From: Candidatus Methylobacter titanis
Lineage (GTDB): Bacteria; Pseudomonadota; Gammaproteobacteria; Methylococcales; Methylomonadaceae
Direction: 5' to 3'
Assembly: GCA_029946125.1 (NCBI GenBank)
Contig: JAQSDX010000027.1
Span: forward strand, 1 to 48,808
Length of the DNA: 48,808 nucleotides
Every line of letters starts with the position of its first letter. The stretch's first letter is position 1. The notes under the pieces are model-generated. The model saw nothing but the letters and a program-made list of their open reading frames with translations. It ran no database searches and was not told the DNA's origin. The position numbers and the translations under genes are program-made. Shown one piece after another: positions 18,736-46,541 of this stretch.

Positions 18736-19401
18736 ATGATTCAAGAAACCCTAGTCATCACCCAAAACAGTTCCGGTCTGGCGCATATTGCGCCGATGGG
18801 TATTCATGTTATCTCCAGGGATGGAGTGTATGCCGAAAACCTGTCGGGAACAGGTTCGGCAATCTCCAAGGACGGAGTGTACGCCGCGAGCCAGCAGGGA
18901 ACTGGCACGGCGACTGGGTCGCAAGACGATTTCATCATCCTGCCGTTTCGCCCCTCAACAACACTCAATAACCTGTTGGCAAGCAAAACCGCCGTGATCA
19001 ACTATTGCGATGATGTACGGGTGTTTGCCGGATGCCTGACCGGGCGGCGCGACTGGCCGTTAAAACCGGCGGAAAAAATCGATGGTCAAGTGCTTGATTG
19101 TGCGCTGGCCCATACCGAAGTCGAACTGGTTCGCGTTGAAGACGACCAGACCCGGCCCAAACTATTCTGCAAAGCCGTGCATAACGTTAATCATGCACCC
19201 TTTAGAGGCTTTAACCGCGCCCAATATTCGGTACTGGAAGCGGCGATTTTAATCAGTCGTTTAGGTATGATTCCATTAGAAAAAATACAAGCCGAAATCG
19301 ACTATCTGCGTATCGGCCTGGAAAAAACAGCCGGAGACCGAGAACTGGAAGCCTGGAGTTGGTTGATGACGGTTATTGAAAACTTTGAGGTAGACGCATG
19401 A
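18736..19401 (+). CDS. DUF447 family protein with an in-frame repeat insertion
   Basis: The 221-residue protein belongs to DUF447, a flavin-reductase-like split-barrel family found in methanogens and in the methanopterin clusters of methylotrophs; its exact role is unknown. The N-terminal IAPMGIHV strand should run straight into FIILPFRPSTTLNNLL. Here about 38 residues (roughly 26-63, with two DGVYA units) are inserted between them, encoded by two 51-bp hairpin repeat units. The reading frame is kept and the rest of the protein appears normal. It overlaps mfnB by 4 bases (ATGA), so the two are coupled. Confidence 0.85.
   Translation: MIQETLVITQNSSGLAHIAPMGIHVISRDGVYAENLSGTGSAISKDGVYAASQQGTGTATGSQDDFIILPFRPSTTLNNLLASKTAVINYCDDVRVFAGCLTGRRDWPLKPAEKIDGQVLDCALAHTEVELVRVEDDQTRPKLFCKAVHNVNHAPFRGFNRAQYSVLEAAILISRLGMIPLEKIQAEIDYLRIGLEKTAGDRELEAWSWLMTVIENFEVDA
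18811..18917 (+). repeat. In-frame 51-bp hairpin repeat, copy A (two units)
   Basis: Two units begin at 18811 and 18862, exactly 51 bases apart. Each has a small hairpin (CTCC, loop AGGGAT or AAGGAC, GGAG) and a larger one (CCTGT-CGGGA-ACAGG inside GCCGA/TCGGC in unit 1; CCAG/CTGG inside GCCG/CGGC in unit 2). They lie inside the DUF447 gene and preserve the frame. Confidence 0.85.
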
Positions 19402-20087
19402 CCGGAATGCTTGCCAGCGTTAACAGCGTAGAAGAAGCCTTGTTGGTTTTAAGCGCGAATGTCGATATTATCGACCTGAAACAACCGGCTTTAGGCGCCT
19501 TGGGTGCGCTGAAAACCGATCTGGTCAAAGCCATTGTTACTGAAATTAACGGTCGCTGTCCTGTTAGCGCAACCGTCGGCGACCTGCCGATGCAGCCTGA
19601 GATTGTTTACCAGGCAGTGACAGCGATGGCCGAAACCGGCGTCGATTATATAAAAATCGGATTTTTTCCCGGCGGCGACTGGCAGGGAACTATAGAAAAA
19701 CTCGCTACATTTCAACACCGGAACCTGGGAACGATCGACTTAATAGCGGTGCTATTCGCCGATACCCAACCGGATCTTGCCGTCATAGACTCGCTAAAAA
19801 ATGCCGGATTCAACGGGGTCATGCTCGACACCATGAACAAAACCAACGGCTCCTTAACTCAGGTCATGGCAAAAGCCGACATAGCGCAATTTGTCCGACT
19901 GGCAAAAGACCGGAAAATGCTCTGCGGACTGGCCGGTTCGCTCAGACTGGACGATATAGCCGAACTGATACCCTACCAGCCGGATTATCTTGGTTTTAGA
20001 GGCGCATTATGTCTGGATCACAACAGAACAGCGCAATTAAACAGTGCGTCAATCAGGCAAATAAAACAGACTATAGATCAAAATTAG
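19398..20087 (+). CDS. mfnB: (5-formylfuran-3-yl)methyl phosphate synthase
   Basis: MfnB joins two glyceraldehyde-3-phosphates into the furan ring precursor of methanofuran. The 229-residue TIM-barrel protein (DUF556) has the motif DIIDLKQPALGALGA with Lys28 and VDYIKIGFFPGG with Lys86. These correspond to the Schiff-base and second active-site lysines known in the archaeal enzyme. In bacteria that use formyltransferase/hydrolase it supplies the methanofuran-like cofactor. It is the last gene of the cofactor cluster and converges on a sensor kinase. Confidence 0.92.
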   Translation: MTGMLASVNSVEEALLVLSANVDIIDLKQPALGALGALKTDLVKAIVTEINGRCPVSATVGDLPMQPEIVYQAVTAMAETGVDYIKIGFFPGGDWQGTIEKLATFQHRNLGTIDLIAVLFADTQPDLAVIDSLKNAGFNGVMLDTMNKTNGSLTQVMAKADIAQFVRLAKDRKMLCGLAGSLRLDDIAELIPYQPDYLGFRGALCLDHNRTAQLNSASIRQIKQTIDQN

Positions 20088-20204
20088 CTACCTGCCGAAA
20101 ACCGCATCTTAATTGCCGATTGAAGAACAATGACAGGGATGACTTTAATCGCTCATTCACAGACACAGGCCCGACCGCACCACTGACAACAAGAGAAAGA
20201 AAAC

Positions 20205-21737
20205 TTATGCGTCGCTACTTATTATGGGTAGAGTGAAATAAAAAGTGGTGCCTTTTCCAGATTCGCTATTAAAACGCAAAACACCTTCATGAGCTTCGAT
20301 AAGTGAACGACTGATAGATAGCCCCATTCCCATCCCGTCTTTTTTAGTGGTATAAAAAGGCATCAATATTTTTTGTTTCTCGTCTTGAGCAAGTCCAAGT
20401 CCATTATCCTTTACCCTGATCTCTATTTCATTATTGAGCGTTAATTGGCTCTGGATGCTTAATTGACGTTGCTGTTTTACGGGTATGTTTTGTAAGGCAT
20501 CAATACTGTTTCGGATCAAATTTATGATGACCTGTTCAATTTGTATATGATCGACAGAAATAGACGGCAGATTGTTTTCCAGAACAAATGTTAACCTTAT
20601 GTCGTTTTTTTTAACTTCAGCGATACACAGGTCAACCGCATCATGAATCAAGCTATTAATATCGGAGCTTGAACGATGTTTTGCATGAGATTTAACAAAT
20701 TCCCTCATTCGATGAATTATCTGTCCCGCTCTTAAAGCCTGCTGCTGAGTTTTGTATAAGATCTCGGTAAGCTTGACCAAATCAGGATCTTCAGTGTTGA
20801 CAAGGTTCAAACTGACTTGCGTATAGCTGGTAATCGCAGCCAGAGGCTGGTTGACTTCATGAGCGATGCCTGAAGCCATTTCCCCCATCAACCCAAGGCG
20901 AGTCACATGAGCGAGTTCGTTCAGATGTTCTTTGTCTTTCTGCTCCCGGCGCTTGAGTTCGCTAATATCGGTAGAAATTCCGCACAAGCCGTAAACACTG
21001 CCGTTTTCATGGCGCAGTGGTTGCTTAGTGGAAAAGTAGGTGCCGGTAATGGTGCTGTCTTTGGCAGTAATCATCTCCTCGACTGCTACTCGTCCACCCA
21101 ATTCAATGACTCGGCGATCATTTTCGCGCAATCTTGCCGTGGTAGCAGCATCAAAAAAATCATCGTCTACCTTGCCAATAATGTCTTCCATCCCCTTGCC
21201 AAACAGTTGCCGTACCGGTCGATTGGCATACTGATATTGATGATTGTTATCCTTGATATAAATAAGGGATTCGACACTATCAAGAATGACGGCAAGTTTA
21301 TTTTCACTTTCGCGCAACGCCTTTTCTGCTACTTTTCTTTGCTCTATCTCGGCTTGCAGCTGTTCGGCACTGGGTAAAGACAAGGCGCGCGGAGTAATCC
21401 ATAGCATCAGGAAAGCAGTAGCAATCGAAAGAATCGCCGTAATACCTTTAAACAATCCGTCCAGCCAATATAAAGGTATCCATATCGTGATAGCCGACAG
21501 TAAATGCGTGGTACCGCAGGCAATAATAAATCCGGCAAACATGACGACCAGCCATGGATAGGGAAAGCTTTTACGCTTCCGGATAAAATAAATGAGAATC
21601 AGAGGAATCGAGTAATAGGACAGAGTAATCAGTATGTCTGCGATAACATGCAGCCAAAGCAATACCGGACTCCACGACAGGCAATACCCATGAGGCAGAA
21701 AGTCTTTAATACCAAAAAAATTAATCAATTGTTGCAT
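20205..21737 (-). CDS. Sensor histidine kinase with ethylene-receptor-like membrane domain
   Basis: This 510-residue orphan kinase has three parts. The N-terminal three-helix membrane domain (about 25-120) carries the residues that define ethylene binding in plant ETR1: Asp34, Tyr41, Pro45, Ile71, Cys74 and His78, in HVIADILITLSYYSIP and GFIIACGTTHLL. A PAS domain (about 140-265) follows a coiled linker. The kinase core has His293 in GIAHEVNQPLAAI, the N-box VIINLIRNSIDAL and DNGLGL/MGMGLSISRSLIEAHEG of the FixL/DctB type. Bacterial homologues such as the Synechocystis receptor bind ethylene through copper. No response regulator is adjacent. Ethylene sensing is inference from conserved residues. 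Confidence 0.9.
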   Translation of the reverse strand: MQQLINFFGIKDFLPHGYCLSWSPVLLWLHVIADILITLSYYSIPLILIYFIRKRKSFPYPWLVVMFAGFIIACGTTHLLSAITIWIPLYWLDGLFKGITAILSIATAFLMLWITPRALSLPSAEQLQAEIEQRKVAEKALRESENKLAVILDSVESLIYIKDNNHQYQYANRPVRQLFGKGMEDIIGKVDDDFFDAATTARLRENDRRVIELGGRVAVEEMITAKDSTITGTYFSTKQPLRHENGSVYGLCGISTDISELKRREQKDKEHLNELAHVTRLGLMGEMASGIAHEVNQPLAAITSYTQVSLNLVNTEDPDLVKLTEILYKTQQQALRAGQIIHRMREFVKSHAKHRSSSDINSLIHDAVDLCIAEVKKNDIRLTFVLENNLPSISVDHIQIEQVIINLIRNSIDALQNIPVKQQRQLSIQSQLTLNNEIEIRVKDNGLGLAQDEKQKILMPFYTTKKDGMGMGLSISRSLIEAHEGVLRFNSESGKGTTFYFTLPIISSDA

Positions 21738-21843
21738 GTGTCAAGTTTACAATAAAATGAGGGACAGGATGGCTTAAAGCCCCTTTGCCCCATGTGTTTG
21801 TGATAAAAAAGCCGAACTCCCAAGCATGTTTGAAATACGAAAA

Positions 21844-23040
21844 TCACTCGGCCCGCAAAGCCTCTAAAGGTTCTAGCCGGGCGGCTTTCATTGCCGGAAC
21901 TACTCCGGCTGCTATGCCGATCAGCAATGAGACCATAAAGGCCGCAACGATATAGGCCCAGGCCAGCTCCACCGGCAAGGCGGGCAGTGCGACCTCAAGT
22001 ATCTTGACGATGGCTATGCCCAGCAACACGCCGCACAGCCCACCTGCACCGCTTAACGCCAAGGCCTCGCACAGAAATAGCTGGAAAATGGTTCGCCTTT
22101 CTGCGCCTACCGCCCGCAGCAAGCCGATTTCGGAAATGCGTTCGGAAACGGCGATAGTCATAATAGTTAATATGCCAACCGAGCCTACCAGCAAAGAAAT
22201 ACTGCCCAGCGCGGCTACCGCCAATGTCAGGATATTCAGAATAGAATCCATGCTTTTCAGCATCTGGTTCTGGGTGACGACGGTGAAATCTTCCCTGCCG
22301 TGCCGGGCAATCAAATGTCGTTTGATCGCATTTTCTACACCGGCAATCGCGGCATTGCTTTGATAGAGCAGATGGATTTCCATCAGGCTTTCCCTGTTAA
22401 ACAACTCCAGCGCTTTGGCGGCGGGGATGTAGATGGTGTCGTCCATATCAAAACCGAGCGTCTGGCCTTTTTTTTCCATCACGCCGATGACCCGAAAACG
22501 GTCGCTGCCGATCCTGATGCGCTGGCCTAGCGGGCTGGCCGTGCCGAACAGTTCGGTCGCCAGTTTATTGCCCAGCACCGCAAAGGCGCGCGGGTTGCTT
22601 TCTTCTTCCGGTAAGAAACGCCCGCTGACGACCTTGATTTTCCAGATTTCCGGTACCGCAGAACCGACCCCGAGCACGTTGGTGCGTCGCTGCATTTTTC
22701 CGGCTTTAATTTGTGCATTACCTTGCACCATCGGGGATACGGAAATAATATTTCGTCGATTTCTTAAGCTGACCGCGTCGGCGATAACCAGCGGTCTAAC
22801 GGTGCTTATGGTTGCGCCCGACACACCGAAGGTGGTAGTTTTTCCGGGATGAATGCTGATCAAATTAGTGCCGAACTGAGTGAACTCTGCCAGCACAAAG
22901 GTATGAATTCCGCGACCGATAGACGTTAATACCACCACCGCCGCGATACCGATAATCAGACCCAATGCGGTCAGTGCCGAACGCAGTTTGTGGCTAATAA
23001 CCGTCCGATATGACAATAAGATAAGATCAGCGTAATGCAT
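21844..23040 (-). CDS. MacB-like ABC transporter permease
   Basis: The permease is 398 residues from the chosen start MHYADLILLSYRTVISHKLR, 4 bases after the preceding gene's stop. A longer start at 23106 would overlap that gene by over 60 bases. The plan is typical of FtsX/MacB permeases without ATPase: N-terminal helix (TALGLIIGIAAVVVLTSIG), a large periplasmic MacB-PCD domain (about 45-245), then three C-terminal helices with ERISEIGLLRAVGAERRTI. It is the last gene of a four-gene export operon and is a divergent paralogue of the permease just upstream. Confidence 0.9.
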   Translation of the reverse strand: MHYADLILLSYRTVISHKLRSALTALGLIIGIAAVVVLTSIGRGIHTFVLAEFTQFGTNLISIHPGKTTTFGVSGATISTVRPLVIADAVSLRNRRNIISVSPMVQGNAQIKAGKMQRRTNVLGVGSAVPEIWKIKVVSGRFLPEEESNPRAFAVLGNKLATELFGTASPLGQRIRIGSDRFRVIGVMEKKGQTLGFDMDDTIYIPAAKALELFNRESLMEIHLLYQSNAAIAGVENAIKRHLIARHGREDFTVVTQNQMLKSMDSILNILTLAVAALGSISLLVGSVGILTIMTIAVSERISEIGLLRAVGAERRTIFQLFLCEALALSGAGGLCGVLLGIAIVKILEVALPALPVELAWAYIVAAFMVSLLIGIAAGVVPAMKAARLEPLEALRAE

Positions 23041-23044
23041 AGGT

Positions 23045-24250
23045 TTACCGCTTTGCCAATGCGACAATAGGATCGAGATTGGCTGCTTTTCTGGCCGGTA
23101 ATACACCGAACAGCAAGCCGGTAATTAACGAAACTGCCAAGGCGGCCAGCAATGCCCAGCCCGGCAGCTCCATAGGAAAATCCGGGTAAAAAGCCTGCAA
23201 AATTGCCAGGGTTACGTATCCCAAGATCACGCCCAACACCGCGCCTGCCAGCGACAGCATCGCCGCCTCGGCCAAAAATAGCCATAGCAACTGCCTTTTG
23301 GTTGCGCCCAAGGCTTTCAGTAAACCGATTTCAGCAGTACGTTGCGTAACGCTGACCAGCATCACATTCATCACCAAAACACCCGCTACTAGCAAACTGA
23401 TTCCAGCGATACCGGCTACAGTCAGGGTCAATGCGGTCAATATTTTATCGAAGGTGCTGACCACGCTGTCCTGGGTAATCAGTGTCACATCGTCTTCGCC
23501 TTCATGGCGGGCCTTGATGATGCCCCTGATTTCATCGACCGCCTGATACATGTCCGGTTTGGATTTGGCTTCAACCAGAATCCTGAATAACGAATGGGTA
23601 TCAAACAAAACCTGTGCCGACGCCACCGAAATAATCACAATTTCATCAAAATCGATGCCGACCGATTGCCCTTCCGACGCCAGCACGCCGATCACCCGAA
23701 AACGCCGGTCGTTAATGCGCAACCATTGCCCCAGAGCCGATTGCTTGGCAAACAGTTCATTACGTATAGTTTGGCCGATCACGCACACCGACAGAGTTTT
23801 ATCGATCTCGGTTTGGGGCAAAAAACTGCCTTGCGCCATGGTCAAACGACGCACCCGTCTTAGTGCATGCGTCGAACCCAAAATATTGGTTTCACGCTCC
23901 AGTCCTTGCGCTGAAACGGGCGCAGAACCGACGGTTAGCGGCGCGATGGCGGCAATATGACGACTGCGTAACAAAGCCTCGGCATCTTCCAGCGTCAGAT
24001 CCCTGGGTGTTTCGCCGAATAACGGCGGCTGTCCGCCTAGGGTTTCGGTGCGCCCCGGCAACACGATAACCAGGTTCGTGCCTAAGGCTTCAAACTCGTT
24101 AACTATATAACGGCGAGCGCTTTCGCCCAACGCAGTTAACACCGAAACCGAAGCAATACCGATGCTCATTGCCAGAATAATCAATCCCGCACGCAAGCGC
24201 TGGGTGCTGATGGCGCCTAAGGCTTGGGTTAACGTGTCTTTAATGAGCAT
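23045..24250 (-). CDS. MacB-like ABC transporter permease
   Basis: This 401-residue second permease has the same plan: helix at about 23-45 (LIILAMSIGIASVSVLTALGE), periplasmic MacB-PCD domain, then three helices with QRTAEIGLLKALGATKRQL. Having two different permeases suggests they form a heterodimer. The gene sits 110 bases downstream of the ATPase gene, a gap that carries a partial hairpin-repeat core, so a weak internal promoter is possible. Substrate is unknown; relatives export macrolides, peptides or lipids. Confidence 0.9.
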   Translation of the reverse strand: MLIKDTLTQALGAISTQRLRAGLIILAMSIGIASVSVLTALGESARRYIVNEFEALGTNLVIVLPGRTETLGGQPPLFGETPRDLTLEDAEALLRSRHIAAIAPLTVGSAPVSAQGLERETNILGSTHALRRVRRLTMAQGSFLPQTEIDKTLSVCVIGQTIRNELFAKQSALGQWLRINDRRFRVIGVLASEGQSVGIDFDEIVIISVASAQVLFDTHSLFRILVEAKSKPDMYQAVDEIRGIIKARHEGEDDVTLITQDSVVSTFDKILTALTLTVAGIAGISLLVAGVLVMNVMLVSVTQRTAEIGLLKALGATKRQLLWLFLAEAAMLSLAGAVLGVILGYVTLAILQAFYPDFPMELPGWALLAALAVSLITGLLFGVLPARKAANLDPIVALAKR

Positions 24251-24359
24251 GATTTATCCTGATTCGGCTTAATTACTCTGCATCGCTGCCGTTATAATGA
24301 AAAATAGAGCAACCGGAGTGCAGGCTTCCATACTTAACTGCTGATACGATGAACACGGG

Positions 24360-25019
24360 TTAACTGAGTTGCCCATCGACAATGCGAATTTTTCGGCGCG
24401 CCCGGTCGCCCACATTCTGATCATGGGTAATAATCACCAATGTCACGCCCTGCCGATTAAGCCCTTCCAACAACGCGATAATTTCCTTGCCGGATTTGCT
24501 GTCGAGATTACCGGTCGGCTCGTCCGCCAATAAAATCGCAGGGCGCATAATCATGGCCCTGGCAATCGCGACACGCTGTAGCTGTCCACCGGAAAGCTGA
24601 TCCGGCCTATGGTGAGCGCGATCTTGCAGACTGACCGACGCCAGCGCCTCCAGTACCCGTTGTTTGCGTTCCTTAACCCCTACGCCTGCCAGTATCATCG
24701 GTATTTCAATGTTTTCAGCCGCCGATAAACGCGGGATCAAATGAAAAAACTGGAACACAAAACCGATGTTTTCGCGGCGAACTTTGGCAAGTTCGTCGTC
24801 GCTAAGCTGGGTAACCGGCTGATCATTTAACAGATACCGGCCTGAGCTGGGCTGATCAAGCAGAGCGATGACATTTAATAAGGTCGATTTTCCGGAACCT
24901 GACGGCCCCATCACCGATACATATTCGCCTTTTTCGATGACGGCATTAATGTCATTCAAGGCATGAACGGTCTGCTCGCCTACCTGGAAATAGCGGTGAA
25001 TATGTTCCAGCCGGATCAT
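24360..25019 (-). CDS. ABC transporter ATP-binding protein (MacB/LolD type)
   Basis: The 219-residue ATPase has Walker A GPSGSGKSTLLN, Q-loop region FVFQFFHLIPRLSA, signature LSGGQLQRVAIARA, Walker B AILLADEPTGNLD and the switch histidine in LVIITHDQNV. The last two and the overall length match the MacB/LolD/FtsE group. Its start overlaps the stop of the adaptor gene by 4 bases (ATGA). It energises the two permeases encoded downstream. Confidence 0.93.
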   Translation of the reverse strand: MIRLEHIHRYFQVGEQTVHALNDINAVIEKGEYVSVMGPSGSGKSTLLNVIALLDQPSSGRYLLNDQPVTQLSDDELAKVRRENIGFVFQFFHLIPRLSAAENIEIPMILAGVGVKERKQRVLEALASVSLQDRAHHRPDQLSGGQLQRVAIARAMIMRPAILLADEPTGNLDSKSGKEIIALLEGLNRQGVTLVIITHDQNVGDRARRKIRIVDGQLS

Positions 25020-26161
25020 TTTTGTACACGGGCATAAGCGCCTGCCACCACGCCATCACGACCTACCGACAACACGACTTTATCACCGGCATTCAGACCA
25101 GACAGCACTTCTACGATATTCCAGTTAGCCAGACCCGGCTTAAAGCTGCGCTCTTCCAGCAAGCCGTCTGCCTGCATCAGCAACACCCGGTTATTTTCCA
25201 GCACCGCTTCGGCAGGCACTCTCAGCGCCTGAGGTTTTCTGGCCAACAACACCTCAATATCGGCACTGTAACCGGGCAGCAAGCCGTTAATATCTTTCGG
25301 GTCGGTTAATTTAACTTCAACTTCGACGGTGCGCGCCTGTTTTTCCTTTTCCAGCACATAAGGCGCGATACGGCTTACCGTGCCGGAACAGCGTTTATCA
25401 GTAAAGGCATCCAGCGACACGCAGGCGCTCATGCCGGTTTTTATCTGCGGCGCGTCCACTTCATCCATCGGCGCAGACACGTACAAACAGCTGACATCCA
25501 GCAAGTCGATGGCGGGCAAAGTCGGAATACCGGGCGGCGATGGCGTGATGAATTCTCCCTGCTCGGCATTGATTTCAGCCACGGTGCCGTCGAAAGGCGC
25601 GAGAATCAGGGTACGTTCGACAGCGGCCTGAACCGCGTCGCGGTTGGCCTGACTAACGGCGATAGCCTCAAGAGCCGCGTTGCAGGATGCACGTTTGGCG
25701 CGTGCGCCGGTCGCTTTAATATCGACCTGCTCTTCAGAGACAATATGATCGAATTTTTGCAACCGTGACAAACGCTCGGCCTCGCGTTCAGCGCCAGCCC
25801 CAAGCTGACAAGCTTGTTCGGCCGATGCCCGGTTAGCCCTGATTTGTGCTTCCTGCAGTTTGACCTGCGCTTTCAGGTCCTTATTCCAGACCTCCAGCAG
25901 TAACTGGTGTTGTTTGACAATGTCGCCTTCCTTGACATGCAACTCGGCAACCTGACCGCCTGTTGCCGGTGCCAGATAGGCGCGCCGACAGGCTTTAACC
26001 GTACCGACGCGGGTATTGGATACCGTCGCCCTCACCTCGCCTTGCTCAAGGGTGACGATTTCAACATCAACAAATTCAGGCTGTTTGGTGAAAAAATAAA
26101 CGGCAACCATCAACGCAATGCCGATGACGATAATGAGTGGTTTTTTGCCCGGTGACGTCAT
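25016..26161 (-). CDS. Periplasmic adaptor (HlyD/MacA-like)
   Basis: The 381-residue adaptor has an N-terminal membrane anchor (KPLIIVIGIALMVAVYFF). A barrel/lipoyl half-motif (TGGQVAELHVKEGDIVKQHQLLLEV), an alpha-hairpin (about 90-165, with several cysteines unusual for this family) and a second lipoyl half (ERTLILAPFDGTVAEINAEQGEF) follow. The C-terminal beta-barrel and membrane-proximal domains complete it. It is the first gene of the operon and would link the ABC pump to an outer-membrane channel, which is not encoded here. A palindrome overlapping a TATAAT box lies 33-49 bases upstream of the start. Confidence 0.9.
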   Translation of the reverse strand: MTSPGKKPLIIVIGIALMVAVYFFTKQPEFVDVEIVTLEQGEVRATVSNTRVGTVKACRRAYLAPATGGQVAELHVKEGDIVKQHQLLLEVWNKDLKAQVKLQEAQIRANRASAEQACQLGAGAEREAERLSRLQKFDHIVSEEQVDIKATGARAKRASCNAALEAIAVSQANRDAVQAAVERTLILAPFDGTVAEINAEQGEFITPSPPGIPTLPAIDLLDVSCLYVSAPMDEVDAPQIKTGMSACVSLDAFTDKRCSGTVSRIAPYVLEKEKQARTVEVEVKLTDPKDINGLLPGYSADIEVLLARKPQALRVPAEAVLENNRVLLMQADGLLEERSFKPGLANWNIVEVLSGLNAGDKVVLSVGRDGVVAGAYARVQK

Positions 26162-27308: not shown

Positions 27309-27431
27309 AGCGCGTCCCGAATAGGCATAGCTCCTCATGAAATAGACAATAACCGCCTGAATCTGGCATTATGTCGCCTCAATACACTTTGTATCCCACA
27401 AGGTTGAGACAAACCTACATTAAGGAAAACA

Positions 27432-27773: not shown

Positions 27774-27820
27774 CGGTAAACAGTGGTAACAACTCAGTAG
27801 TCAATATAATAGAACGCAAT

Positions 27821-27874
27821 AATGGAACGCAGAGGCCAAAAGTAAGCACCTACTTTTGGCCTCTGCGTTCCATT
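27821..27874. terminator. Perfect 24-bp inverted repeat between yjdM and moeA
   Basis: Bases 27821-27844 and 27851-27874 are exact reverse complements around the 6-base loop AGCACC. A T-run follows on the plus side (TTTTT from about 27872). It can stop transcription from both converging genes but is unusually long and perfect for a simple terminator. Confidence 0.8.
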
Positions 27875-37474: not shown

Positions 37475-37485
37475 GGACGCAACCT

Positions 37486-39543
37486 ATGTTTAACGAAGCA
37501 AATTCAGCGATAAATACCGGCACTATTTCGAGCGCCTCGAATACCGTTAATCACTACACAGCTGATCTTAATCGAGCCATCAACAAAGCGCAGGACAAAT
37601 TACTAAGCCTGCAGGACAAAGACGGCTATTGGGTATTCGAACTCGAAGCAGACTGCTCGATCCCCTCAGAATACATCATGATGATGCACTACCTGGGTGA
37701 AATTGATAAACCGCTACAGGCCAAAATCGCCAACTATCTAAGATCTCGTCAAGCTGAAAATGGCAGCTATCCGCTGTTTACCGGCGGTGCGGGCGACCTT
37801 AGTTGCAGCGTTAAAGCCTATTTCGCCTTGAAAATGGCGGGCGATGCTATCGACGCACCGCACATGAGCCGATTAAGAGATTACATCCTCAACCAAGGTG
37901 GTGCGGCAAAAGCCAATGTGTTTACCCGTATTGCACTGGCAACCTTTAAGCAATTACCCTGGCGCGGCGTTCCGTATATTCCTGTCGAAATCATGCTATT
38001 TCCCAGCTGGTTTCCGTTCCATTTGGATAAAGTATCCTACTGGTCCAGAACCGTTATGGTACCGCTGTTTATTCTTTGCACCTTAAAAGCGACAGCAAAA
38101 AATCCAAACAACATTACTATACGGGAACTGTTCACCACCCATCCGGACGAAGAACAACACTACTTTCCTGAAAGAACGACATTAAATAAGATTTTTCTGG
38201 GTTTGGATAAACTGGGCAAAGCAACACGACCGTTAATCCCCAAAAAACTGCACAATCTTGCCATCGAAAAAGCCAAAGATTGGATTATCGAACGCCTGAA
38301 CGGCGAAGATGGCCTGGGTGGAATTTCTCCCGCCATGATGGCCGCTTACGAAGCTTTACTGCTACTTGAGATGCCTAAAGATCATGAGTTGATGATCACC
38401 GCACGTAAAGCCATCGACAAATTATTGGTCATCAATGAACATGATGCCTACTGCCAACCGTGCTTATCGCCGGTTTGGGATACAGCCCTTGCTGCACTGG
38501 CTTTACAGGAATCCGACAAGACAGGTAACAGTCAAAGCCTGACTCGCGCCTACGATTGGCTTAAAAGCAAGCAACTGTCCGACGAACCGGGTGATTGGAG
38601 AATCTCAAAGCCTGATTTAGCAGGCGGCGGCTGGGCATTTCAGTTTGAGAACCCGCATTATCCCGATGTCGACGACACGGCGATTGTTGCCTTCGCCATG
38701 GCGGAATCGAACCTGCCGCATCTGGATGAATCGATACATCGGGCAACCCGCTGGATAATCGGCATGCAGTCTAAAAACGGCGGTTACGGCGCATTCGATG
38801 TCGATAATACCTATTATTATTTGAACGAAATTCCCTTTGCCGATCATGGCGCGTTATTAGATCCGCCTACTTCCGATGTCAGCGCACGCTGTGCCATGCT
38901 GATGGCTAGAGTGGCTCAAAATCACGATGAATATTTGCCTGCGTTAGAGCGCACTATCGACTATATCCGCAGTGAGCAAGAACAAGACGGTTCATGGTTT
39001 GGTCGCTGGGGCACCAACTACATCTACGGCACATGGTCGGCATTACTTGGACTCGAGCAAACTAGCCTGCCTAAAAGCGATCCGCTGTACATCAAAGCCG
39101 CAGCTTGGCTAAAAAGCGTACAACGTGGCGATGGCGGCTGGGGCGAAGACAACTACAGCTATCACGATATCAACCATAGTGGAAAATATCGTTTCAGCAC
39201 CGCATTCCAAACGGCTTGGGCAGTTTTAGGACTCATGGCTGCCGGCGAGGCGCACAGTCCCGAAGTAAAAGCAGGCATCGATTTTATCTTGCGCAACCAG
39301 CAAGCTGACGGCGTATGGAATGACGAATGTTTTACTGCGCCCGGCTTTCCTAAAGTTTTTTATCTTAAATACCACGGTTACGACAAGTTCTTCCCACTTT
39401 GGGCATTAGCGCGCTACCGTAACGAACTCAAGGACGACCGGTCGGTCATCCCTACAAGCGACATACACACCATCCCTGGCGATCGCCACGCCGGTTCCCT
39501 ACCGGCTTGTGGCATACACACCATCCCTGGCGATAAAAATTGA
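37486..39543 (+). CDS. shc: Squalene-hopene cyclase with repeat-derived C-terminus
   Basis: Shc (HpnF) cyclises squalene to hopene/hopanol at the membrane. The 685-residue protein has the acid motif D394-V-D396-D397-T, many QW repeats (e.g. QEQDGSWFGRWG, VQRGDGGWGED, QQADGVWND) and the conserved end VFYLKYHGYDKFFPLWALARYRNEL. The normal protein should stop about residue 650. Instead about 35 further residues (with HTIPGD twice) come from an in-frame 51-bp hairpin repeat in reverse orientation. The stop overlaps the start of hpnG (TTGA). The active part appears intact. Confidence 0.95.
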   Translation: MFNEANSAINTGTISSASNTVNHYTADLNRAINKAQDKLLSLQDKDGYWVFELEADCSIPSEYIMMMHYLGEIDKPLQAKIANYLRSRQAENGSYPLFTGGAGDLSCSVKAYFALKMAGDAIDAPHMSRLRDYILNQGGAAKANVFTRIALATFKQLPWRGVPYIPVEIMLFPSWFPFHLDKVSYWSRTVMVPLFILCTLKATAKNPNNITIRELFTTHPDEEQHYFPERTTLNKIFLGLDKLGKATRPLIPKKLHNLAIEKAKDWIIERLNGEDGLGGISPAMMAAYEALLLLEMPKDHELMITARKAIDKLLVINEHDAYCQPCLSPVWDTALAALALQESDKTGNSQSLTRAYDWLKSKQLSDEPGDWRISKPDLAGGGWAFQFENPHYPDVDDTAIVAFAMAESNLPHLDESIHRATRWIIGMQSKNGGYGAFDVDNTYYYLNEIPFADHGALLDPPTSDVSARCAMLMARVAQNHDEYLPALERTIDYIRSEQEQDGSWFGRWGTNYIYGTWSALLGLEQTSLPKSDPLYIKAAAWLKSVQRGDGGWGEDNYSYHDINHSGKYRFSTAFQTAWAVLGLMAAGEAHSPEVKAGIDFILRNQQADGVWNDECFTAPGFPKVFYLKYHGYDKFFPLWALARYRNELKDDRSVIPTSDIHTIPGDRHAGSLPACGIHTIPGDKN
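39436..39533 (-). repeat. In-frame 51-bp hairpin repeat, copy B (reverse, in shc)
   Basis: On the minus strand two AGGGAT hairpins (39470-39479 and 39521-39530) are 51 bases apart. A large hairpin between them (GCCGGT, loop TCCCT, ACCGGC at 39490-39506) lies inside outer arms GCCAC/GTGGC. The copy supplies the last 35 or so codons of shc and ends 7 bases before the hpnG start. Confidence 0.85.
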
Positions 39544-40256: not shown

Positions 40257-40264
40257 TAAGCAGC

Positions 40265-42895
40265 ATGTCATCCTTTTTCAACACCCTTCTTAGCTGGTGC
40301 GAACGGCAAATCATGCGCTGTCCGTGGGCGCTGTTGTTGCTGTCGCTATTGCTGTGCGGTGCATCCTTGCCCTACACCCTTAAAAATCTGGAGATTAACA
40401 CCAACACCGCTGAGATGTTGTCTCCCGACTTGCCTTTTCAGCAAAATCAGGCCCGCTTAAATCAGGCATTTCCCCAGGATGCCGATACCATTATTTTTGT
40501 GGTTGATGCCGCAACGCCGGAAGAAACCTCTCAAGCTGCAGGCAAACTTGCCGAACAGTTAGATAATGCCAAAGATCGCTTCGACTCCGTCTATATACCC
40601 ACGGATAATGCCTTTTTCCAACAGCAGTCCTTACTTTATCTCGATCAAAATGATCTGGATAAATTGGCCAAAAAACTCACCGATGCACAGCCATTTATAG
40701 GCCACTTGGCGCAAAATTATCATCTTGAAGGCCTGTTCGGCATTATCGGTCAAGCGCTTAACCGGCATGACAATAGCTTGCCCATGAACCTGAATCCGAT
40801 ACTCATTGCCATCGACGATACCCTCAAGAATCAATTAAACGGTCAATCACACTATTTGTCCTGGCAAAACATATTGGCTGAAAACAAGCCGAATACCGAC
40901 GACTATAAGGATGCAGGAGCACAGACCAAATTCAACCGGACTATCGTCATCGCCAAGCCTAAAATGCATTTTGATGAAATGCTACCTGCCGATGTCGCGC
41001 TGTCGGCAGCGCGAGAAATCAGTCGCGCCATCATGGCTGAAAACCCGTCACTGAGCATACGGATAACCGGCGAGACTGCCCTGGAACACGAAGAGCTTGA
41101 GAGCGTCAGCAAAGGCGCTGCTTTCGCCGGCTTGTTGTCACTGATTTTAGTCTGCGTAATTCAATTGATGGCCCTGCGCTCAATAAAACTACTGATTGCT
41201 ACCTCTATCGTACTGGTTATGGGCTTGATATTTACCGCCGGATTTGCCGCCATCAGCGTAGGACATTTAAATGTCATTTCTATCGCCTTTGCCTGTTTAT
41301 ATATCGGACTGGGGGTAGATTATGCAATCCATATCTGCCTGCATTATCGCGAAGGCAGAGCAGAGGGTCTGCCCAATAGCGAAGCTATCCTGGTCAGTAT
41401 CCGCGATGTCGGCTCTTCATTATTTTTATGCGCCTTGTCTACAGCGATTGGTTTTCTTGCGTTTATACCCACAGATTATGCGGGCGTATCTGAATTAGGC
41501 ATTATTTCGGGCGGCGGTATCTTTATCGGCCTGATTATTTCACTAACCGTATTGCCGGCCTTATTCTGCGTCTTACCGGTCAATCATGTTAAGCCGATCC
41601 GCTCACCATTAATCTCAGCATTTATCATCGACTTTCCTTTTCGCTTTGCAACCGGCATCAAAGTCGTCTCCCTATTGCTGGGTATCGGTGCCTGCTTTGT
41701 ATTGACCCATCTTACCTTTGATAACAACCCTATTAATCTCAGAGACCCAAACAGCGAATCGGTTTCAACCATTAAAGAATTATTAAAGTCCAAAACCGAA
41801 TCCCCGTTTGCCCTAACCGCATTGGCAAACAATCTGGAAGCCGCCGACAACATCACCACTCAACTGGAGCAACAGCCATCTGTCCACGAAGTCATTACCT
41901 TGGCAAGTTTTGTCGCTAAAGATCAGGGCGAGAAGTTGGATACTATTGAAGATTTAAATTTGATGCTGGGCGGGCAACTTGAAAATTTTGACGACACTCT
42001 TGATAGCACCAATCAACAGGCCGCTTTGATTAAATTTAATGAAGCGCTGAAAAGAGCCATTATTGAAAAATCCCCTGATGTGCCGCAACAAACCTTAGAG
42101 CAATTACATCAGCGTATCGAAGCGTTCATGAAACACACAGACGCCACTCAAACGCCAACAGCCGGTTACATGCAACTGGAAAAAAATATTTTAGGTCTAC
42201 TGCCGTTTACTTTAGAACGACTCAGAACCAGTCTGACTGCCATGCCTTTTGGACTGGATGATCTACCGAAATACATAAGCTCTCACTGGGTCAGCGCTGC
42301 CGGTCTTTATAGAGTGCTGATCACGCCTGAAAAAGACCAAAATAATCCTGAAAATCTGAAAGAATTTGCTACCCAAGTGCAGACGATTAACAACACAATT
42401 TCCGGCCTGCCGATTATCAATCAGGCTGGTGGCGATGCCGTAGTCAAGGCATTTATTCAAGCCTTTAGCGGTGCTTTTATTGCCATTGTGGTGTTATTAT
42501 TACTGATGTACAGAAGCGTTAGAAAGACCTTGCTGGTTGTCATGCCATTATTGCTTGCCGCTTTATTAACCGGTGCGACCAACGTATTACTGGATAATCC
42601 ATTCAATTTTGCTAATATCATCGCCCTGCCGTTACTGCTGGGCATAGGTATCGACAGCAGCATCCTGATCATGCACAGGCACCACTCCATAGGCGAAGAT
42701 GAAAATTTACTGCAAAGCAGCACTACCCGAGGCATTATTTTCAGCTCCGTAACGACTTTGTGCAGCTTTTCCAGTTTGGCTTTTACTGCGCATCAGGGCA
42801 TGGCCAGCATGGGTTTACTTTTGGCCATAGGCCTTACTTTCACAGTGATGTGTTCTTTAATAGTCCTGCCTGCTTTCAGCGGCAAAAGCATTTAA
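40265..42895 (+). CDS. hpnN: Hopanoid RND transporter HpnN
   Basis: This 876-residue MMPL/RND-type transporter moves hopanoids to the outer membrane. It has an N-terminal helix (WALLLLSLLLCGASLPYTL), a long periplasmic loop, a first five-helix block (about 285-440, with YIGLGVDYAIHICLHYR), a second periplasmic loop, and a second block at the C-terminus (ALPLLLGIGIDSSILIMHRHH). The repeated GLGVDYAIH/GIGIDSSI motifs hold the proton-relay Asp of RND pumps. It lies between hpnG (8 bases) and hpnO (17 bases). Confidence 0.93.
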   Translation: MSSFFNTLLSWCERQIMRCPWALLLLSLLLCGASLPYTLKNLEINTNTAEMLSPDLPFQQNQARLNQAFPQDADTIIFVVDAATPEETSQAAGKLAEQLDNAKDRFDSVYIPTDNAFFQQQSLLYLDQNDLDKLAKKLTDAQPFIGHLAQNYHLEGLFGIIGQALNRHDNSLPMNLNPILIAIDDTLKNQLNGQSHYLSWQNILAENKPNTDDYKDAGAQTKFNRTIVIAKPKMHFDEMLPADVALSAAREISRAIMAENPSLSIRITGETALEHEELESVSKGAAFAGLLSLILVCVIQLMALRSIKLLIATSIVLVMGLIFTAGFAAISVGHLNVISIAFACLYIGLGVDYAIHICLHYREGRAEGLPNSEAILVSIRDVGSSLFLCALSTAIGFLAFIPTDYAGVSELGIISGGGIFIGLIISLTVLPALFCVLPVNHVKPIRSPLISAFIIDFPFRFATGIKVVSLLLGIGACFVLTHLTFDNNPINLRDPNSESVSTIKELLKSKTESPFALTALANNLEAADNITTQLEQQPSVHEVITLASFVAKDQGEKLDTIEDLNLMLGGQLENFDDTLDSTNQQAALIKFNEALKRAIIEKSPDVPQQTLEQLHQRIEAFMKHTDATQTPTAGYMQLEKNILGLLPFTLERLRTSLTAMPFGLDDLPKYISSHWVSAAGLYRVLITPEKDQNNPENLKEFATQVQTINNTISGLPIINQAGGDAVVKAFIQAFSGAFIAIVVLLLLMYRSVRKTLLVVMPLLLAALLTGATNVLLDNPFNFANIIALPLLLGIGIDSSILIMHRHHSIGEDENLLQSSTTRGIIFSSVTTLCSFSSLAFTAHQGMASMGLLLAIGLTFTVMCSLIVLPAFSGKSI

Positions 42896-42912
42896 TTTTT
42901 TTGAGGTATCTA

Positions 42913-44298
42913 ATGTCATTCAGCATAGCCGAACTTTTTTCTCAACACAGCACTGATAAATTTGATCTGCACGAACAACATTTAAACAATCAAATGGTCA
43001 GAGTGTTAAAGACCATAGGCTACGATCGCCACTACAAAAAGGCTATCGGACAATATCTCTACGACCAGGAAGGCACGGAATACCTGGACTTGCTTAGTGG
43101 TTTCGGCGTGTTTGCGATCGGTCGTAATCACCCGACAGTCATTAGCGCCTTAATCGAAACATTAACCTTGGAACTACCCAACCTGGTACAAATGGATGTA
43201 TCCGTACTTAGCGGGTTACTGGCACAAGAAATTCTGAAAACCACACCGGACAATCTGAACAAGATGTTCTTTTGCAATTCCGGCACCGAATCCGTCGAAG
43301 CGGCGATCAAGTTCGCCCGCTATACCACCAAACGTGAAAAAATCGTCTTTTGCGAACACGGCTATCACGGACTGACTCTAGGTTCGTTGTCATTAAACGG
43401 CGAAGATATTTTTCGCGAGGGTTTTGGCCCACTGCTGCCCGGTTGCATCGCCGTTCCTTTTAACGATCTTGCCGCGTTGGAAAAAGCCCTAAGCAACAAA
43501 GATGTTGCCGCTTTTGTCGTCGAACCCATTCAAGGTAAAGGCGTTAATGTGCCGGACGAACATTATTTGCCGGAAGTCGAGCGCTTATGCAAGAAATATG
43601 GCACCTTGTTCGTCGCCGATGAAGTTCAGACCGGCTTGGGACGCACCGGAAAATTCTGGGCTATCGATCACTGGAACGTTAAACCCGATATGATTTGCAT
43701 GGCCAAAGCCCTGTCCGGCGGCTTTGTTCCAATCGGTGCGGTCGCCATGACCCAGAAAATCATGGATACCGTTTATAATCGTATGGATAGAGCTGTCGTG
43801 CATGGTTCCACGTTTTCCAAAAATAATATGGCGATGGCCGCTGGTCTTGCTACGCTGCATGTCATGGAAGAAGAAAAACTGGTGGAAAACAGCATGAAGA
43901 TCGGTACCGACATTATCGACAGCCTAAATGCGATGGCCGGTAAATATGAATTCCTGAAAGAAGCGCGCGGCAAAGGCATGATGATAGCCATTGAATTCCA
44001 ATCGCCAAAAAGCCTAAGATTAAAGGCAGCTTGGGCGATGCTGGAAGCGGCCAATAAAGGTTTGTTCTGTCAAATGATCACCATACCTTTATTTAAAGAA
44101 CACCACATATTAACGCAGGTCGCCGGGCATGGCATGAACGTAGTTAAACTGTTGCCACCCTTAACCTTAACGCAAAAAGACCGCGACACGATAGTCAATT
44201 CATTCGATAAAGCCATAGCCGATACCCATCAAATTCCCGGCTCTATTTGGGACTTAGGTAAGAATCTGGCCGGTCATGCGTTGAAAGGCAAAAAATAA
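42913..44298 (+). CDS. hpnO: Aminotransferase HpnO, aminobacteriohopanetriol synthesis
   Basis: This class III PLP aminotransferase aminates the hopanoid side chain. The chosen ATG gives 461 residues starting SFSIAELFSQHSTDKFDLHEQHLNNQMVRVLK. The frame is open to 42760 inside hpnN but that part has no family match, and TTGAGG lies 6 bases before 42913. PLP site: Lys265 in MAKALSGGFVPIGAV, with GTESVEAAIKFAR, GYHGLT and FVADEVQTGLGRTG. It completes the C35 branch and is last in the hpn operon, 15 bases before copC. Confidence 0.93.
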   Translation: MSFSIAELFSQHSTDKFDLHEQHLNNQMVRVLKTIGYDRHYKKAIGQYLYDQEGTEYLDLLSGFGVFAIGRNHPTVISALIETLTLELPNLVQMDVSVLSGLLAQEILKTTPDNLNKMFFCNSGTESVEAAIKFARYTTKREKIVFCEHGYHGLTLGSLSLNGEDIFREGFGPLLPGCIAVPFNDLAALEKALSNKDVAAFVVEPIQGKGVNVPDEHYLPEVERLCKKYGTLFVADEVQTGLGRTGKFWAIDHWNVKPDMICMAKALSGGFVPIGAVAMTQKIMDTVYNRMDRAVVHGSTFSKNNMAMAAGLATLHVMEEEKLVENSMKIGTDIIDSLNAMAGKYEFLKEARGKGMMIAIEFQSPKSLRLKAAWAMLEAANKGLFCQMITIPLFKEHHILTQVAGHGMNVVKLLPPLTLTQKDRDTIVNSFDKAIADTHQIPGSIWDLGKNLAGHALKGKK

Positions 44299-44313
44299 TT
44301 AAGCAGAAAAGTA

Positions 44314-44670
44314 ATGAAAAAAGCATGCCAATTCATTTTGTTATTGTTAACGCTGTGCCAGACACATTGGGTCTTCGCTCATGCGGTGATAACCGATTAT
44401 TCGCTAAAAATCACGCCCATTCATGCCAACAGCCCGGCAAAAGTCGAACTGTCGTTTAATTCTCAGATAGAATTGGGCTTGTCGCAGATTTTTCTGGTCA
44501 GTAAAGGCGATAAACATCAATTATTAACAGCCGTCAACGGCAGTAAACAAGGTCAAATTATTATCCTGATTCCACCACTCGAATCCGGTGACTATGCACT
44601 CAGATTTAAAGTCTTTGCTGCTGATGGTCATTTAACCGAAGACCTTATTCATTTTTCCGTTTCCAAATAA
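44314..44670 (+). CDS. copC: CopC-family periplasmic copper-binding protein
   Basis: The 118-residue exported protein has a signal peptide ending HWVFA. The mature chain would start with His (HAVITDYSL), the N-terminal ligand of the Cu(II) site of CopC. The C-terminal part has D and H in GHLTEDLIHFSV, the other expected ligands. The beta-sandwich is of normal length. No Met-rich Cu(I) site is seen, so it probably binds Cu(II) only. It is transcribed directly before copD. In methanotrophs CopC/CopD may help supply copper; pmoCAB is not in the window, so this is inference. Confidence 0.88.
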   Translation: MKKACQFILLLLTLCQTHWVFAHAVITDYSLKITPIHANSPAKVELSFNSQIELGLSQIFLVSKGDKHQLLTAVNGSKQGQIIILIPPLESGDYALRFKVFAADGHLTEDLIHFSVSK

Positions 44671-44678
44671 AACACGCA

Positions 44679-46541
44679 ATGGCCGGTATAGCTGATTTTC
44701 TCGATTCTCTGATTGGCGGGTTTGACCTGATTTGCTATTCGTTAGCAATCGGCAGCCTGTTTTGGGGACTGTTTGTATTACGCCCGTGGCATTCGCCGCG
44801 TCAGTTCCCGACTGACTTGCGGCATACACACCGTCCCTGGCAATACCAAGACGGATATTCGACGCTATTACTGCAAAAAACTATCGCCCTTATTTATAAA
44901 GGCGCTTTCTGGCTGTCTGCCGCTCAACTTTTCAAAATAATCCTTAAAGTATGGTTAATGACCGCCGTCCTTGAGCGCTCACCGTTTCCCGAATTCGCCG
45001 AAACCACGCAATTCATAGGCGGCATAGTACGCATGACACTGACTCTATTTTTAGCAACTTACTGCTATCGATACCTCAGCAAAAATCCATTTTCCAAACA
45101 ACACTGGATAATCGCCACTATCGTAGCTTTGCCGATGATTATTTCAGGCGCGTGGCTAGTACATGGCGCCGGGCGTTTTGAAAATCAATACCTGTTAATG
45201 ACGCTGACAGTCATCCATCAACTGGCCGCAGCAGCCTGGATCGGCGGAGTTTTTCAACTGGTCAACCTTTGGCTGTTGCGCAACAGAAATCAGATTGCCG
45301 CTGGATTATGGCCTTTATTGCTTAAACGTTTCTCTACGTTCGGCATAGCCTCAGTTACGATGATCCTGATTTCAGGCTTGCCTATTGCATGGCAATACAT
45401 CGACAGCTGGAACGGCCTGATCGGTACCGGCTACGGCAATTTATTGCTGGTAAAAATAACCTTACTGGCTATCGCCTTGGGTTTTGCCTGGTTAAATAAA
45501 AGCGCCGTTTTGGAATTCGGGTTTTCCGGCAATAATCACGCACTAAACAACCGCGTTCCTTATTATATTGAAGCGGAAACCTTTATCCTGATTACCTTGT
45601 TATTTACTGCCGCCAGTCTGGCTTCCCAGCCACCTGCTATCGACATTCCAAGTCTGACAGCAAGCTGGCAGGAAGTCCTGGGAACCTTTAGACCGCAAAT
45701 TCCAATGACAAACTCCCCAACACATACAGCGTTGATAGCCGGTGAAGCCGGACGCGTTGCCATTGTCGGCCAAGTGCCTTCGCTGGCGGCAACCGAATGG
45801 TCGAACTATAACCATAACATCGCCGGTATTTTCCTGACCGTAATGAGCTTCTTTGCGATGCTGTCTTATGTTAGAAAACCTGGCTTTGAACACTTCAAAT
45901 ACTGGCCTCTGGGGTTTGTCGGATTAGGTATCTTCCTGTTTTTCCGTAGTGATGCAGAATCCTGGCCCTTGGGACCGATAGGTTTCTGGGACAGCACCTT
46001 TAATAACGGCGAAGTATTGCAGCATCGGATTGCGACCTTACTGGTATTTGTACTCGGTATTATGGAACTTAGTGCCCGGATAACCAAAAACCCGAACAGC
46101 AAACTCCCTTTTGTTTTTCCGTTGCTGGCAGCTTTTGGCGGTTTAATGCTACTGACCCATTCACATGTCGGCTTCCAAGCCAAAAGTGCTTTCCTTATCC
46201 AGGTCGGTCACACCACAATGGGTATTTTCTCTCTCATTCTGGCCTGTGGTCGCTGGCTGGAATTAAAATTGGATAACCCAAGCAAAGATATCACCAGGGA
46301 TGGTGTGTATGCCGCAAGCCTGTCGGGAACAGGCGCGGCGATCACCAGGGATGGTGTGTATGCCGCAAGCCTGTCGGGAATAAGCGCGGCGATCGCTAAG
46401 GATGGAGGGAATATCGACGACTACCGGGAGCAGGCGTGGCAGCCATCCTTGGCAGTCTCGAAGATTGCCGGTTTTATTTCTGTTGCCGCCTTGTTTCAGA
46501 TTGGCATCATCCTGATGTTTTATCGCGAACCTCTTTACTAA
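44679..46541 (+). CDS. copD: CopD-family copper transport membrane protein with two repeat insertions
   Basis: The 620-residue inner-membrane protein has many helices in two blocks. The CopD-like part (about 60-330) has HGAGRFENQYLLMTLTVIHQLAAAAWIGGVFQL and a GLPIAWQYI helix. A second C-terminal helix set (about 375-620) has HRIATLLVFVLGIMELS and LLTHSHVGFQAKSAFLIQVGH, rich in His as possible metal ligands. Two insertions are repeat-derived: residues about 39-56 (near PRQFPTDLRHTHRPW) and about 538-590 (two DGVYAASLSG units). They sit in loops between helices. It starts 8 bases after copC. Confidence 0.88.
   Translation: MAGIADFLDSLIGGFDLICYSLAIGSLFWGLFVLRPWHSPRQFPTDLRHTHRPWQYQDGYSTLLLQKTIALIYKGAFWLSAAQLFKIILKVWLMTAVLERSPFPEFAETTQFIGGIVRMTLTLFLATYCYRYLSKNPFSKQHWIIATIVALPMIISGAWLVHGAGRFENQYLLMTLTVIHQLAAAAWIGGVFQLVNLWLLRNRNQIAAGLWPLLLKRFSTFGIASVTMILISGLPIAWQYIDSWNGLIGTGYGNLLLVKITLLAIALGFAWLNKSAVLEFGFSGNNHALNNRVPYYIEAETFILITLLFTAASLASQPPAIDIPSLTASWQEVLGTFRPQIPMTNSPTHTALIAGEAGRVAIVGQVPSLAATEWSNYNHNIAGIFLTVMSFFAMLSYVRKPGFEHFKYWPLGFVGLGIFLFFRSDAESWPLGPIGFWDSTFNNGEVLQHRIATLLVFVLGIMELSARITKNPNSKLPFVFPLLAAFGGLMLLTHSHVGFQAKSAFLIQVGHTTMGIFSLILACGRWLELKLDNPSKDITRDGVYAASLSGTGAAITRDGVYAASLSGISAAIAKDGGNIDDYREQAWQPSLAVSKIAGFISVAALFQIGIILMFYREPLY
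44795..44846 (-). repeat. In-frame 51-bp hairpin repeat, copy C (reverse, in copD)
   Basis: On the minus strand a large hairpin (GTCAGT, loop CGGGA, ACTGAC at 44800-44816) lies inside GCCGC/GCGGC (44795-44799 and 44819-44823). A small AGGGAC hairpin at 44831-44840 follows. It is a single unit, in frame, in the first loop of the copD product. Confidence 0.8.
46290..46447 (+). repeat. In-frame 51-bp hairpin repeat, copy D (two units plus decayed third, in copD)
   Basis: Units start at 46290 and 46341 (51 bases, 17 codons), with a worn third from 46392. Each has CACC-AGGGAT-GGTG and CCTGT-CGGGA-ACAGG inside GCCGC/GCGGC. In unit 2 the right inner arm is ATAAG, so one stem has decayed. Units 1 and 2 are nearly identical, suggesting recent duplication. 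Confidence 0.88.

Follow-up and report, generated by a model that had tools for sequence, protein, structure and literature searches.

Location of the 51-bp unit

The stretch analyzed here (the window) comprises the 48,808 nucleotides of contig JAQSDX010000027.1 (assembly GCA_029946125.1, forward strand) of Candidatus Methylobacter titanis. It contains a 51-bp unit, with the consensus ATCGCCAGGGATGGTGTGTATGCCGCAAGCCTGTCGGGAACAGGCGCGGCG and two hairpins, which was found as six full and two damaged copies within three genes encoding a DUF447 family protein, a squalene-hopene cyclase (Shc) and a copper resistance protein D (CopD). Coordinates are presented in Table 1. An earlier reading of this DNA, referred to below as the original prediction, had placed seven units of a 51-base repeat in frame in the same three genes. 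This placement was confirmed and lies far above chance, with a 20-base pattern of the first hairpin giving 68 matches in the genome of origin and 5 when the pattern was reversed. The number of units was roughly right, while the positions required small corrections: the span 39436-39533 is really one unit followed by a half unit interrupted by a palindrome resembling those of the repetitive extragenic palindrome (REP) class, and the span 44795-44846 was off by one to two bases. In the DUF447 protein the insert corresponds to residues 26-59, ahead of the domain-matched stretch at residues 63-151, and in Shc the full unit ends up two codons ahead of the stop of the open reading frame (ORF).

Table 1. 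Units, host genes and associated features; positions refer to the window unless a locus (L) or genome (G) is named.
Feature	Position	Strand	Score or domain
Host gene, DUF447 family	18736..19401	+	PF04289, PF20766
Full unit 1 of 2 in DUF447 gene	18811..18861	+	covariance model 77.0 bits
Second full unit in DUF447 gene, the more diverged	18862..18912	+	59.1 bits
Host gene, Shc	37486..39543	+	PF13243, PF13249
GTAG-type REP-like palindrome fused to truncated unit	39432..39455	-	
Truncated second unit, first 28 bp, cut off by GTAG-type palindrome	39456..39483	-	
Full unit, antisense to Shc	39484..39534	-	76.6 bits
Host gene, CopD	44679..46541	+	PF05425
Full unit, antisense, near CopD N-terminus	44794..44844	-	
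Full unit 1, CopD C-terminal site	46290..46340	+	81.8 bits
Full unit 2, CopD C-terminal site	46341..46391	+	74.1 bits
Degenerate third unit, same CopD array	46392..46441	+	23.4 bits, E 0.03
GTAG-type palindrome after partial unit or unit-like stretch	16550-16573	+	
GTAG-type palindrome after partial unit or unit-like stretch	L046, about 1858		
Y1-type gene near stop-codon array	G428:C16:126413 (L301)		
Y1-type gene near stop-codon array	G311:C24:97344 (L308)		

The genome of origin (3,508,352 bases in 146 contigs, 99.98% complete) was searched with a covariance model derived from its 57 distinct units. This produced 94 matches at E<=0.05, many of the weaker ones belonging to sister families, and 64 of the 68 hairpin pattern matches overlapped them; the other four have three mismatches and look like chance. 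The model search proposed with the original prediction thus recovered many further copies, both in this genome and in the genus. No orphan half-element which might represent a parent transposon was seen among the 68 pattern matches. The unit had no match in Rfam, either across the whole window at the gathering score or at E<=1 in window positions 46200-46500, and a search of seven distant loci returned 6S RNA alone. Phage and plasmid collections queried with one array gave no match, and viral contigs held no exact match to a 23-base pattern.

Insertion and target site

CopD homologues from 27 of 50 loci were aligned and read at the two insert sites, and 21 of the 27 carried neither insert. The CopD relatives with the highest identity bear the name Methylobacter. 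At the C-terminal site exactly 17 extra residues were present in L105 and L106 and 34 in L104, between the same two flanking residues, with longer, partly degenerate inserts in L101-L103 and in the window. The N-terminal site held 17 extra residues in L105, 51 in L104 and none in most homologues. For Shc, empty alleles which were diverged at the junction were found in L105, L108, L109 and L110. The joined flanks of 139 arrays were then compared with 350 sequences (2.09 Mb), which gave 42 distinct sites, made up of 14 gap-free empty alleles, 8 gapped alleles, 2 alleles carrying units and 18 filled copies, the last being mostly the same place retrieved twice. The 14 gap-free empty alleles, found in relatives, displayed neither target duplication nor loss, as for an element of the IS200/IS605 type.

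These results bear on the possibility that the units are ordinary conserved protein segments or tandem-repeat domains. Such segments would be open in the host frame, as the units are, and yet the units occur in unrelated host proteins, in different frames and on both strands. The idea is refuted by the empty alleles and by the absence of the units from close homologues, and we consider its probability negligible.

Target preference was analyzed using 198 units forming 139 arrays, of which 75 sites (40 from the genome of origin) were retained after dropping arrays with flanks more than 60% identical to those of an array kept earlier. A thymine was present at position -1 in 72 of the 75 sites and A or T at -2 in 71, while G was found at +4 in 61. 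The same bases were already present in most of the gap-free empty alleles (by our count 12 of the 14 had T at -1 and 12 had G at +4), and so the motif mostly predates insertion. The unit itself starts with ATC (A in 155/156 units, T in 149/156), directly preceded by the host T. Since the element begins ATCG, the T^ATCG produced by each insertion conforms to the target once more. The insertion point thus lies between (T/A)T and NNNG, and units occur in both orientations relative to the gene.

Arrays of units

Most of the 75 sites carried a single unit (52), with two units at 17, three at 4 and four at 2, arranged head-to-tail. Within arrays the consensus junction GGCG^ATCGCC is a perfect 10-bp palindrome containing GCGATCGC. 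Polarity was assessed in the 29 distinct arrays of exact 51 x n length, arrays of other lengths being dropped. The first unit outscored the last in 22 of these, was worse in 6 and tied in 1 (p 0.004; Wilcoxon 1.4e-4), and the 3'-most unit was usually the most degenerate. In the genome of origin just 10 of 41 array units had their nearest relative in their own array. Directional serial insertion fits the arrays best, with some arrays also duplicated; new units would enter at the 5' side.

Reading frames and host genes

With respect to coding sequence, 71 of the 75 sites lay within a read-through ORF of at least 150 codons, compared to 72.8% of 3000 simulated insertions in which real arrays were placed at (T/A)T^NNNG sites (p 1.7e-6). 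The frames used were also skewed (p 5e-5; 2e-8 with a looser control). Observed numbers, with expected numbers in brackets, were 34 (19.9) for same-0, 16 (9.4) for anti-1, 13 (16.6) for anti-0, 4 (12.6) for same-1, 3 (6.9) for anti-2 and 1 (5.6) for same-2. The favoured frames, which read IARDGVYAASLSGTGAA and AAPVPDRLAAYTPSLAI, contain no Cys, His or Trp, unlike the other four, a description made post hoc; cysteine is absent from three of the six. Array length was divisible by three in 69 of 71 cases, and inserts within genes were nearly always a multiple of 51. In Methylobacter-type genomes the copy followed the direction of its host gene in 39 cases (sense) and opposed it in 32 (antisense). 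The original prediction that the insert is free of stops in both orientations holds for the consensus, which is open in all six frames, although a single unit may have a stop codon in a frame which is not used, as does that at 39484-39534 in its own forward frame.

The genome of origin gave 40 host-ORF entries, representing 37 different ORFs, and 20 were scanned for domains in addition to the three window genes. Hosts included RNase R, a class I tRNA synthetase, a type II/IV secretion ATPase, an M3 peptidase, UvrD and SufB, as well as an ABC ATPase, PurH, Sua5, the E1 component of pyruvate dehydrogenase, GlnE and a ComEC-like protein. An aconitase B case (L042) was excluded as it is degenerate and has no T at -1. 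Given the observed read-through and frame skew, the copies are predicted to be translated as 17-residue inserts at permissive protein positions, and additional 17-residue blocks are expected in core proteins. Copies would be tolerated through this in-frame translation, with selection at the protein level filtering those which have inserted, and a function of the fold in host mRNA would not be needed.

Fold and covariation

When folded, one strand of the unit forms two hairpins, the first of 4 bp with the loop AGGGAU and the second, which is bulged, of 11 bp with the loop CGGGA. The structure tested comprised pairs 3-16 to 6-13, with the loop at 7-12, and pairs 22-50 to 34-40, with a two-base bulge and the loop at 35-39. 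In an alignment of 57 units from the genome of origin (855 cells), 94.2% of cells were paired, compared to 84.3% in shuffles and 28-53% in controls in which the structure was slid. Double changes were found at 9 of the 15 pairs, a number also reached by 17 of 500 shuffles, and amounted to 86 cells versus 24.0 in shuffles, which none of the 500 reached. A second alignment, of 103 matches from other genomes (83 distinct), was 97.0% paired with double changes at 10 of 15 pairs (0 of 500 shuffles reached this) in 128 cells; as it was fitted to the covariance model it leans towards the given structure. The compensatory stem changes described in the original prediction therefore hold on both alignments, and the slid controls fail.

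Changes on both arms could also arise with no selection on the fold, by palindrome correction, in which template switching between the arms is a mutational mechanism that changes both together. Copying of one arm would, however, remove wobble pairs, and at columns 4-15 a G-U wobble was the commonest pair (40 of 57 units and 72 of 83 in the two alignments). Loop 1, moreover, is conserved at A-GGA. We regard this explanation as very unlikely.

The commonness of the G-U wobble at columns 4-15 also means that one strand folds better than the other. Pairing was equal in sense (n=39) and antisense (n=32) copies, at 0.952 and 0.952. On the same element strand, sense and antisense copies held 1.28 and 1.22 G-U pairs per unit versus 0.26 and 0.16 A-C. 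The GGA of loop 1 was kept in 38/39 sense and 32/32 antisense copies, and that of loop 2 in 37/39 and 30/32. As the fold is equally intact in both orientations, it is probably kept for the element and not for the host mRNA. Selection on the fold most likely acts via the element's own spread.

Distribution and sister families

A family-level search matched 77 of 201 genomes at E<=0.001. All 20 genomes of the same genus among those listed (own genome included) were matched, 18 of them with at least 25-33 matches each (29 candidates scored), while the remaining two had 3 and 2; 104 of the family's genomes without a match lay outside those listed, and the unmatched genomes listed begin with members of the same family. 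At class level 21 of 369 genomes were matched at E<=1e-4, own genome included, though several single weak matches may be chance. At phylum level there were 6 of 398 at E<=1e-5, own genome included, all belonging to the same class.

In another family (f114) three genomes (G311, G428, G526) keep the architecture, at loci L219, L220 and L245-L264. Of 21 loci considered there 19 were resolved, L257 and L262 being dropped as the unit was not found by pattern. Fourteen, in about ten different genes, start inside a stop codon composed of the host T and AA or AG from the element. Loci L218, L222, L263 and L352 follow T-runs, the last three with a terminator hairpin recognized by eye. Exceptions were L221, which lies inside a long ORF, and L256, L259 and L268, which are at neither a stop codon nor a T-run. 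In f114 the start-to-start distance of successive units was 52 or 53 bases where checked. The constant 51-bp length in Methylobacter is thus most simply linked to residence within reading frames.

Two sister families were also observed. Family B (CGACTGCCAGGGATGG...GCGAC) is 51 bp in length, starts with CG and has the loops AGGGAT and AGGGA. It occurs in the genome of origin, for example at L322, L323, L330, L332 and L344, with several copies inside long ORFs. Family C has the same plan, and by eye its units appear to sit within inverted family B units (L326, L335, L336, L338, L345), as a nested insertion. An intergenic unit-like stretch at window 12161-12230 (-), ACACAGGGATGTGTTGAATGCAG...CTACATCCCTGTAGGCAAAG, resembles a further sister type in L095 and L099.

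GGA loops and CsrA

Loop 1 reads ANGGAN in 152 of 156 distinct units, and across the positions A-N-G-G-A-X its information content was 1.94, 1.15, 1.94, 1.94, 1.94 and 1.32 bits. Loop 2 ends in GGA in 140 of 156. A high-affinity CsrA/RsmE site is an ANGGAX hexaloop placed directly on a stem, and AGGGA pentaloops also bind (PMC4005645); loop 1 has this form. CsrA was present in 15 of 15 genomes examined, copy-poor ones included. The unit might accordingly act as RNA, as a pair of CsrA/RsmA-family binding hairpins spread across transcripts which titrates CsrA or tags mRNAs. The loop 2 of family B, AGGGA, would suit such a role, as would the f114 genomes, where 14 of 19 resolved arrays are sense and directly at a stop codon. 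That orientation would, however, follow simply from the stop being kept. In Methylobacter-type genomes nearly half of the copies are antisense, with pairing and GGA loops equal to those of sense copies, and a copy antisense to its gene places no GGA loops in the mRNA. CsrA also occurs in the copy-poor genomes G144 and G186, and Rfam gave no match at either threshold. An RNA role of this kind is in our view rather unlikely. The RsmX/Y/Z and CsrB sponge RNAs of the CsrA/Rsm system resemble the unit in their exposed-GGA hairpins and ANGGAX hexaloop (PMC4005645), and differ in that the unit forms no separate small RNA and is embedded in genes in both orientations.

The resemblance of the loops to the CsrA site may be coincidental, may reflect a recognition logic common to both or may stem from an actual connection. 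A broader proposal would make the units a gammaproteobacterial superfamily with CsrA/RsmA-type hairpin pairs, spread at (T/A)T^NNNG by a strand-specific enzyme into protein-neutral niches, which would be in-frame positions inside genes in Methylobacter and stop codons or the ends of T-runs elsewhere. The element itself would use the GGA loops, with a global RNA-binding regulator, or a protein of the same recognition, aiding its spread. This we put forward as speculative and doubtful.

Proposed mobility and the search for an enzyme

Taken together, the data point to a family of non-autonomous mobile elements, a 51-bp unit with no gene of its own, which would be moved in trans by a strand-specific enzyme and filtered by selection at the protein level; we assign this reading a probability of roughly 0.6. 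The trans-acting enzyme would recognize the folded strand and cut four nucleotides 5' of a G at both donor and target. A single-strand enzyme of the HUH/Y1 type is the candidate mover, as it is consistent with the exact ends, the absence of a duplicated target, a fold specific to one strand and the target T that stays outside the element.

Several observations weigh against this proposal. No enzyme was identified, and no convincing unit was present at 37 Y1-transposase stretches (two sets, 30 and 7, with many further Y1 matches lying outside this sample), where the one match had an E value of 0.28. The copy-rich genome G156 (87% complete) has a single Y1 match. We know of no G at +4 as a feature of IS200/IS605 targets. 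For IS608 and ISDra2 the target is the lagging-strand template (PMC6006769), whereas no replication-strand bias was seen in G110. Of 12 scorable arrays there, 6 were leading and 6 lagging in a count by hand, and 7 others were set aside as lying near a switch or on a contig that offered a single sample. The in-gene excess may in part reflect faster decay of intergenic copies, and it may be inflated by the choice of sites outside the genome of origin from high-scoring matches. Neighbouring units resembled each other more closely on average than did units drawn from different arrays (0.826 vs 0.766, p 0.005), and so some arrays did grow by duplication. The eight gapped junctions, which we list here as well, are neutral with respect to clean insertion.

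The link to a REP-associated tyrosine transposase (RAYT) or similar enzyme suggested in the original prediction found no support in the 37 Y1 stretches sampled. The units could nonetheless represent an unusual REP family moved by RAYT or IS200-type Y1 transposases already in these genomes. They have hairpins and insert with no target duplication, and Y1 matches were found in 15 of 15 genomes examined. REPs can also sit in frame in genes, and those of the GTAG type can supply stop codons (PMC3733652). However, the unit has no GTAG or CGTC tag, carries two hairpins and forms head-to-tail arrays, and no particular Y1 type stood out as shared by the copy-rich genomes. A separate GTAG-type palindrome, in addition, coexists with the units and interrupts them. 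This origin is possible, although unlikely on balance. In two f114 genomes a stop-codon array has a Y1-type gene (ORF of 287-288 codons) at a distance of 5-6 kb (Table 1), which may be chance. Locus L151 of the genome of origin has two complete-looking ORFs side by side, one tnpA-like and a second which we take to be tnpB-like, with no units in the stretch.

A strand-specific fold with G-U pairs and a T-rich left flank would also be compatible with a short structured RNA being retrotransposed by a reverse transcriptase. A search for RVT_1 at E<=0.001 gave no match in four copy-carrying genomes of the 15 examined, namely the genome of origin, G168 (86% complete), G428 and G526. Furthermore, the strand primed at a T-run would be the folding strand, and the template RNA would then be the strand which does not fold. 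Reverse transcription is unlikely, and as the source of these units we rate it as highly improbable.

Relation to known elements

Intragenic palindromic elements are already known. Rickettsia palindromic element (RPE) families have hosts in the Rickettsiales. The likeness to them noted in the original prediction was upheld for behaviour, namely in-frame insertion in genes and absence from homologues, and not for membership. RPEs and intragenic REPs likewise place palindromic repeats inside protein genes, including repair and tRNA-related genes; GTAG REPs may supply stop codons, and RPE-4 and RPE-6 have been counted as CGTC REPs (PMC3733652). The 51-bp unit differs in its fixed two-hairpin length, head-to-tail arrays, (T/A)T^NNNG target, in-gene excess, GGA loops and gammaproteobacterial hosts. 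An unpaired GTAG or CGTC at one end, typical of REPs, is lacking, as the unit begins ATC after the host T, and in place of a single palindrome of 20-40 bp, often in head-to-head dimers, there are two hairpins in 51 nt and arrays of 1-4 units.

IS200/IS605 elements make no target duplication and have their target to the left of the element. Their miniature derivatives, and REPtrons, resemble the unit in that a folded single strand is recognized by a Y1 enzyme (PMC6006769, PMC8266576). The unit differs in that no parent element or enzyme was seen, in its G at +4 and, in one genome, in having no lagging-strand bias. PARCEL repeats (palindromic amphipathic repeat coding elements) are dyad-symmetric DNA coding for tandem peptide repeats and are thought to be mobile (PMC2996958). 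They have a 25-residue motif and lie in ORFs with no assigned function, whereas the 51-bp unit encodes 17 residues, in several frames and in known enzymes. None of the best-ranked literature matches (titles and abstract openings) was recognized as describing the 51-bp two-hairpin element, and RepRanger (PMC12306157) held none of the terms looked for; we recognize no prior description of it.

The units have the appearance of a natural system for in-frame peptide insertion, acting on dozens of genes per genome, core enzymes included, with empty alleles in sister species. They make it possible to ask where in a protein an insertion is tolerated, by what route palindromic elements get into genes and which enzyme reads a folded 51-mer. 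The target motif, array polarity and GGA loops can each be tested at the bench.

Palindromes of the GTAG type (GTAGGGRYGACCGRCCGGTCGYCC) were found at three places, two of them in the window (Table 1), in each case immediately behind part of a unit or a stretch resembling one, as if one repeat family had inserted into the other.

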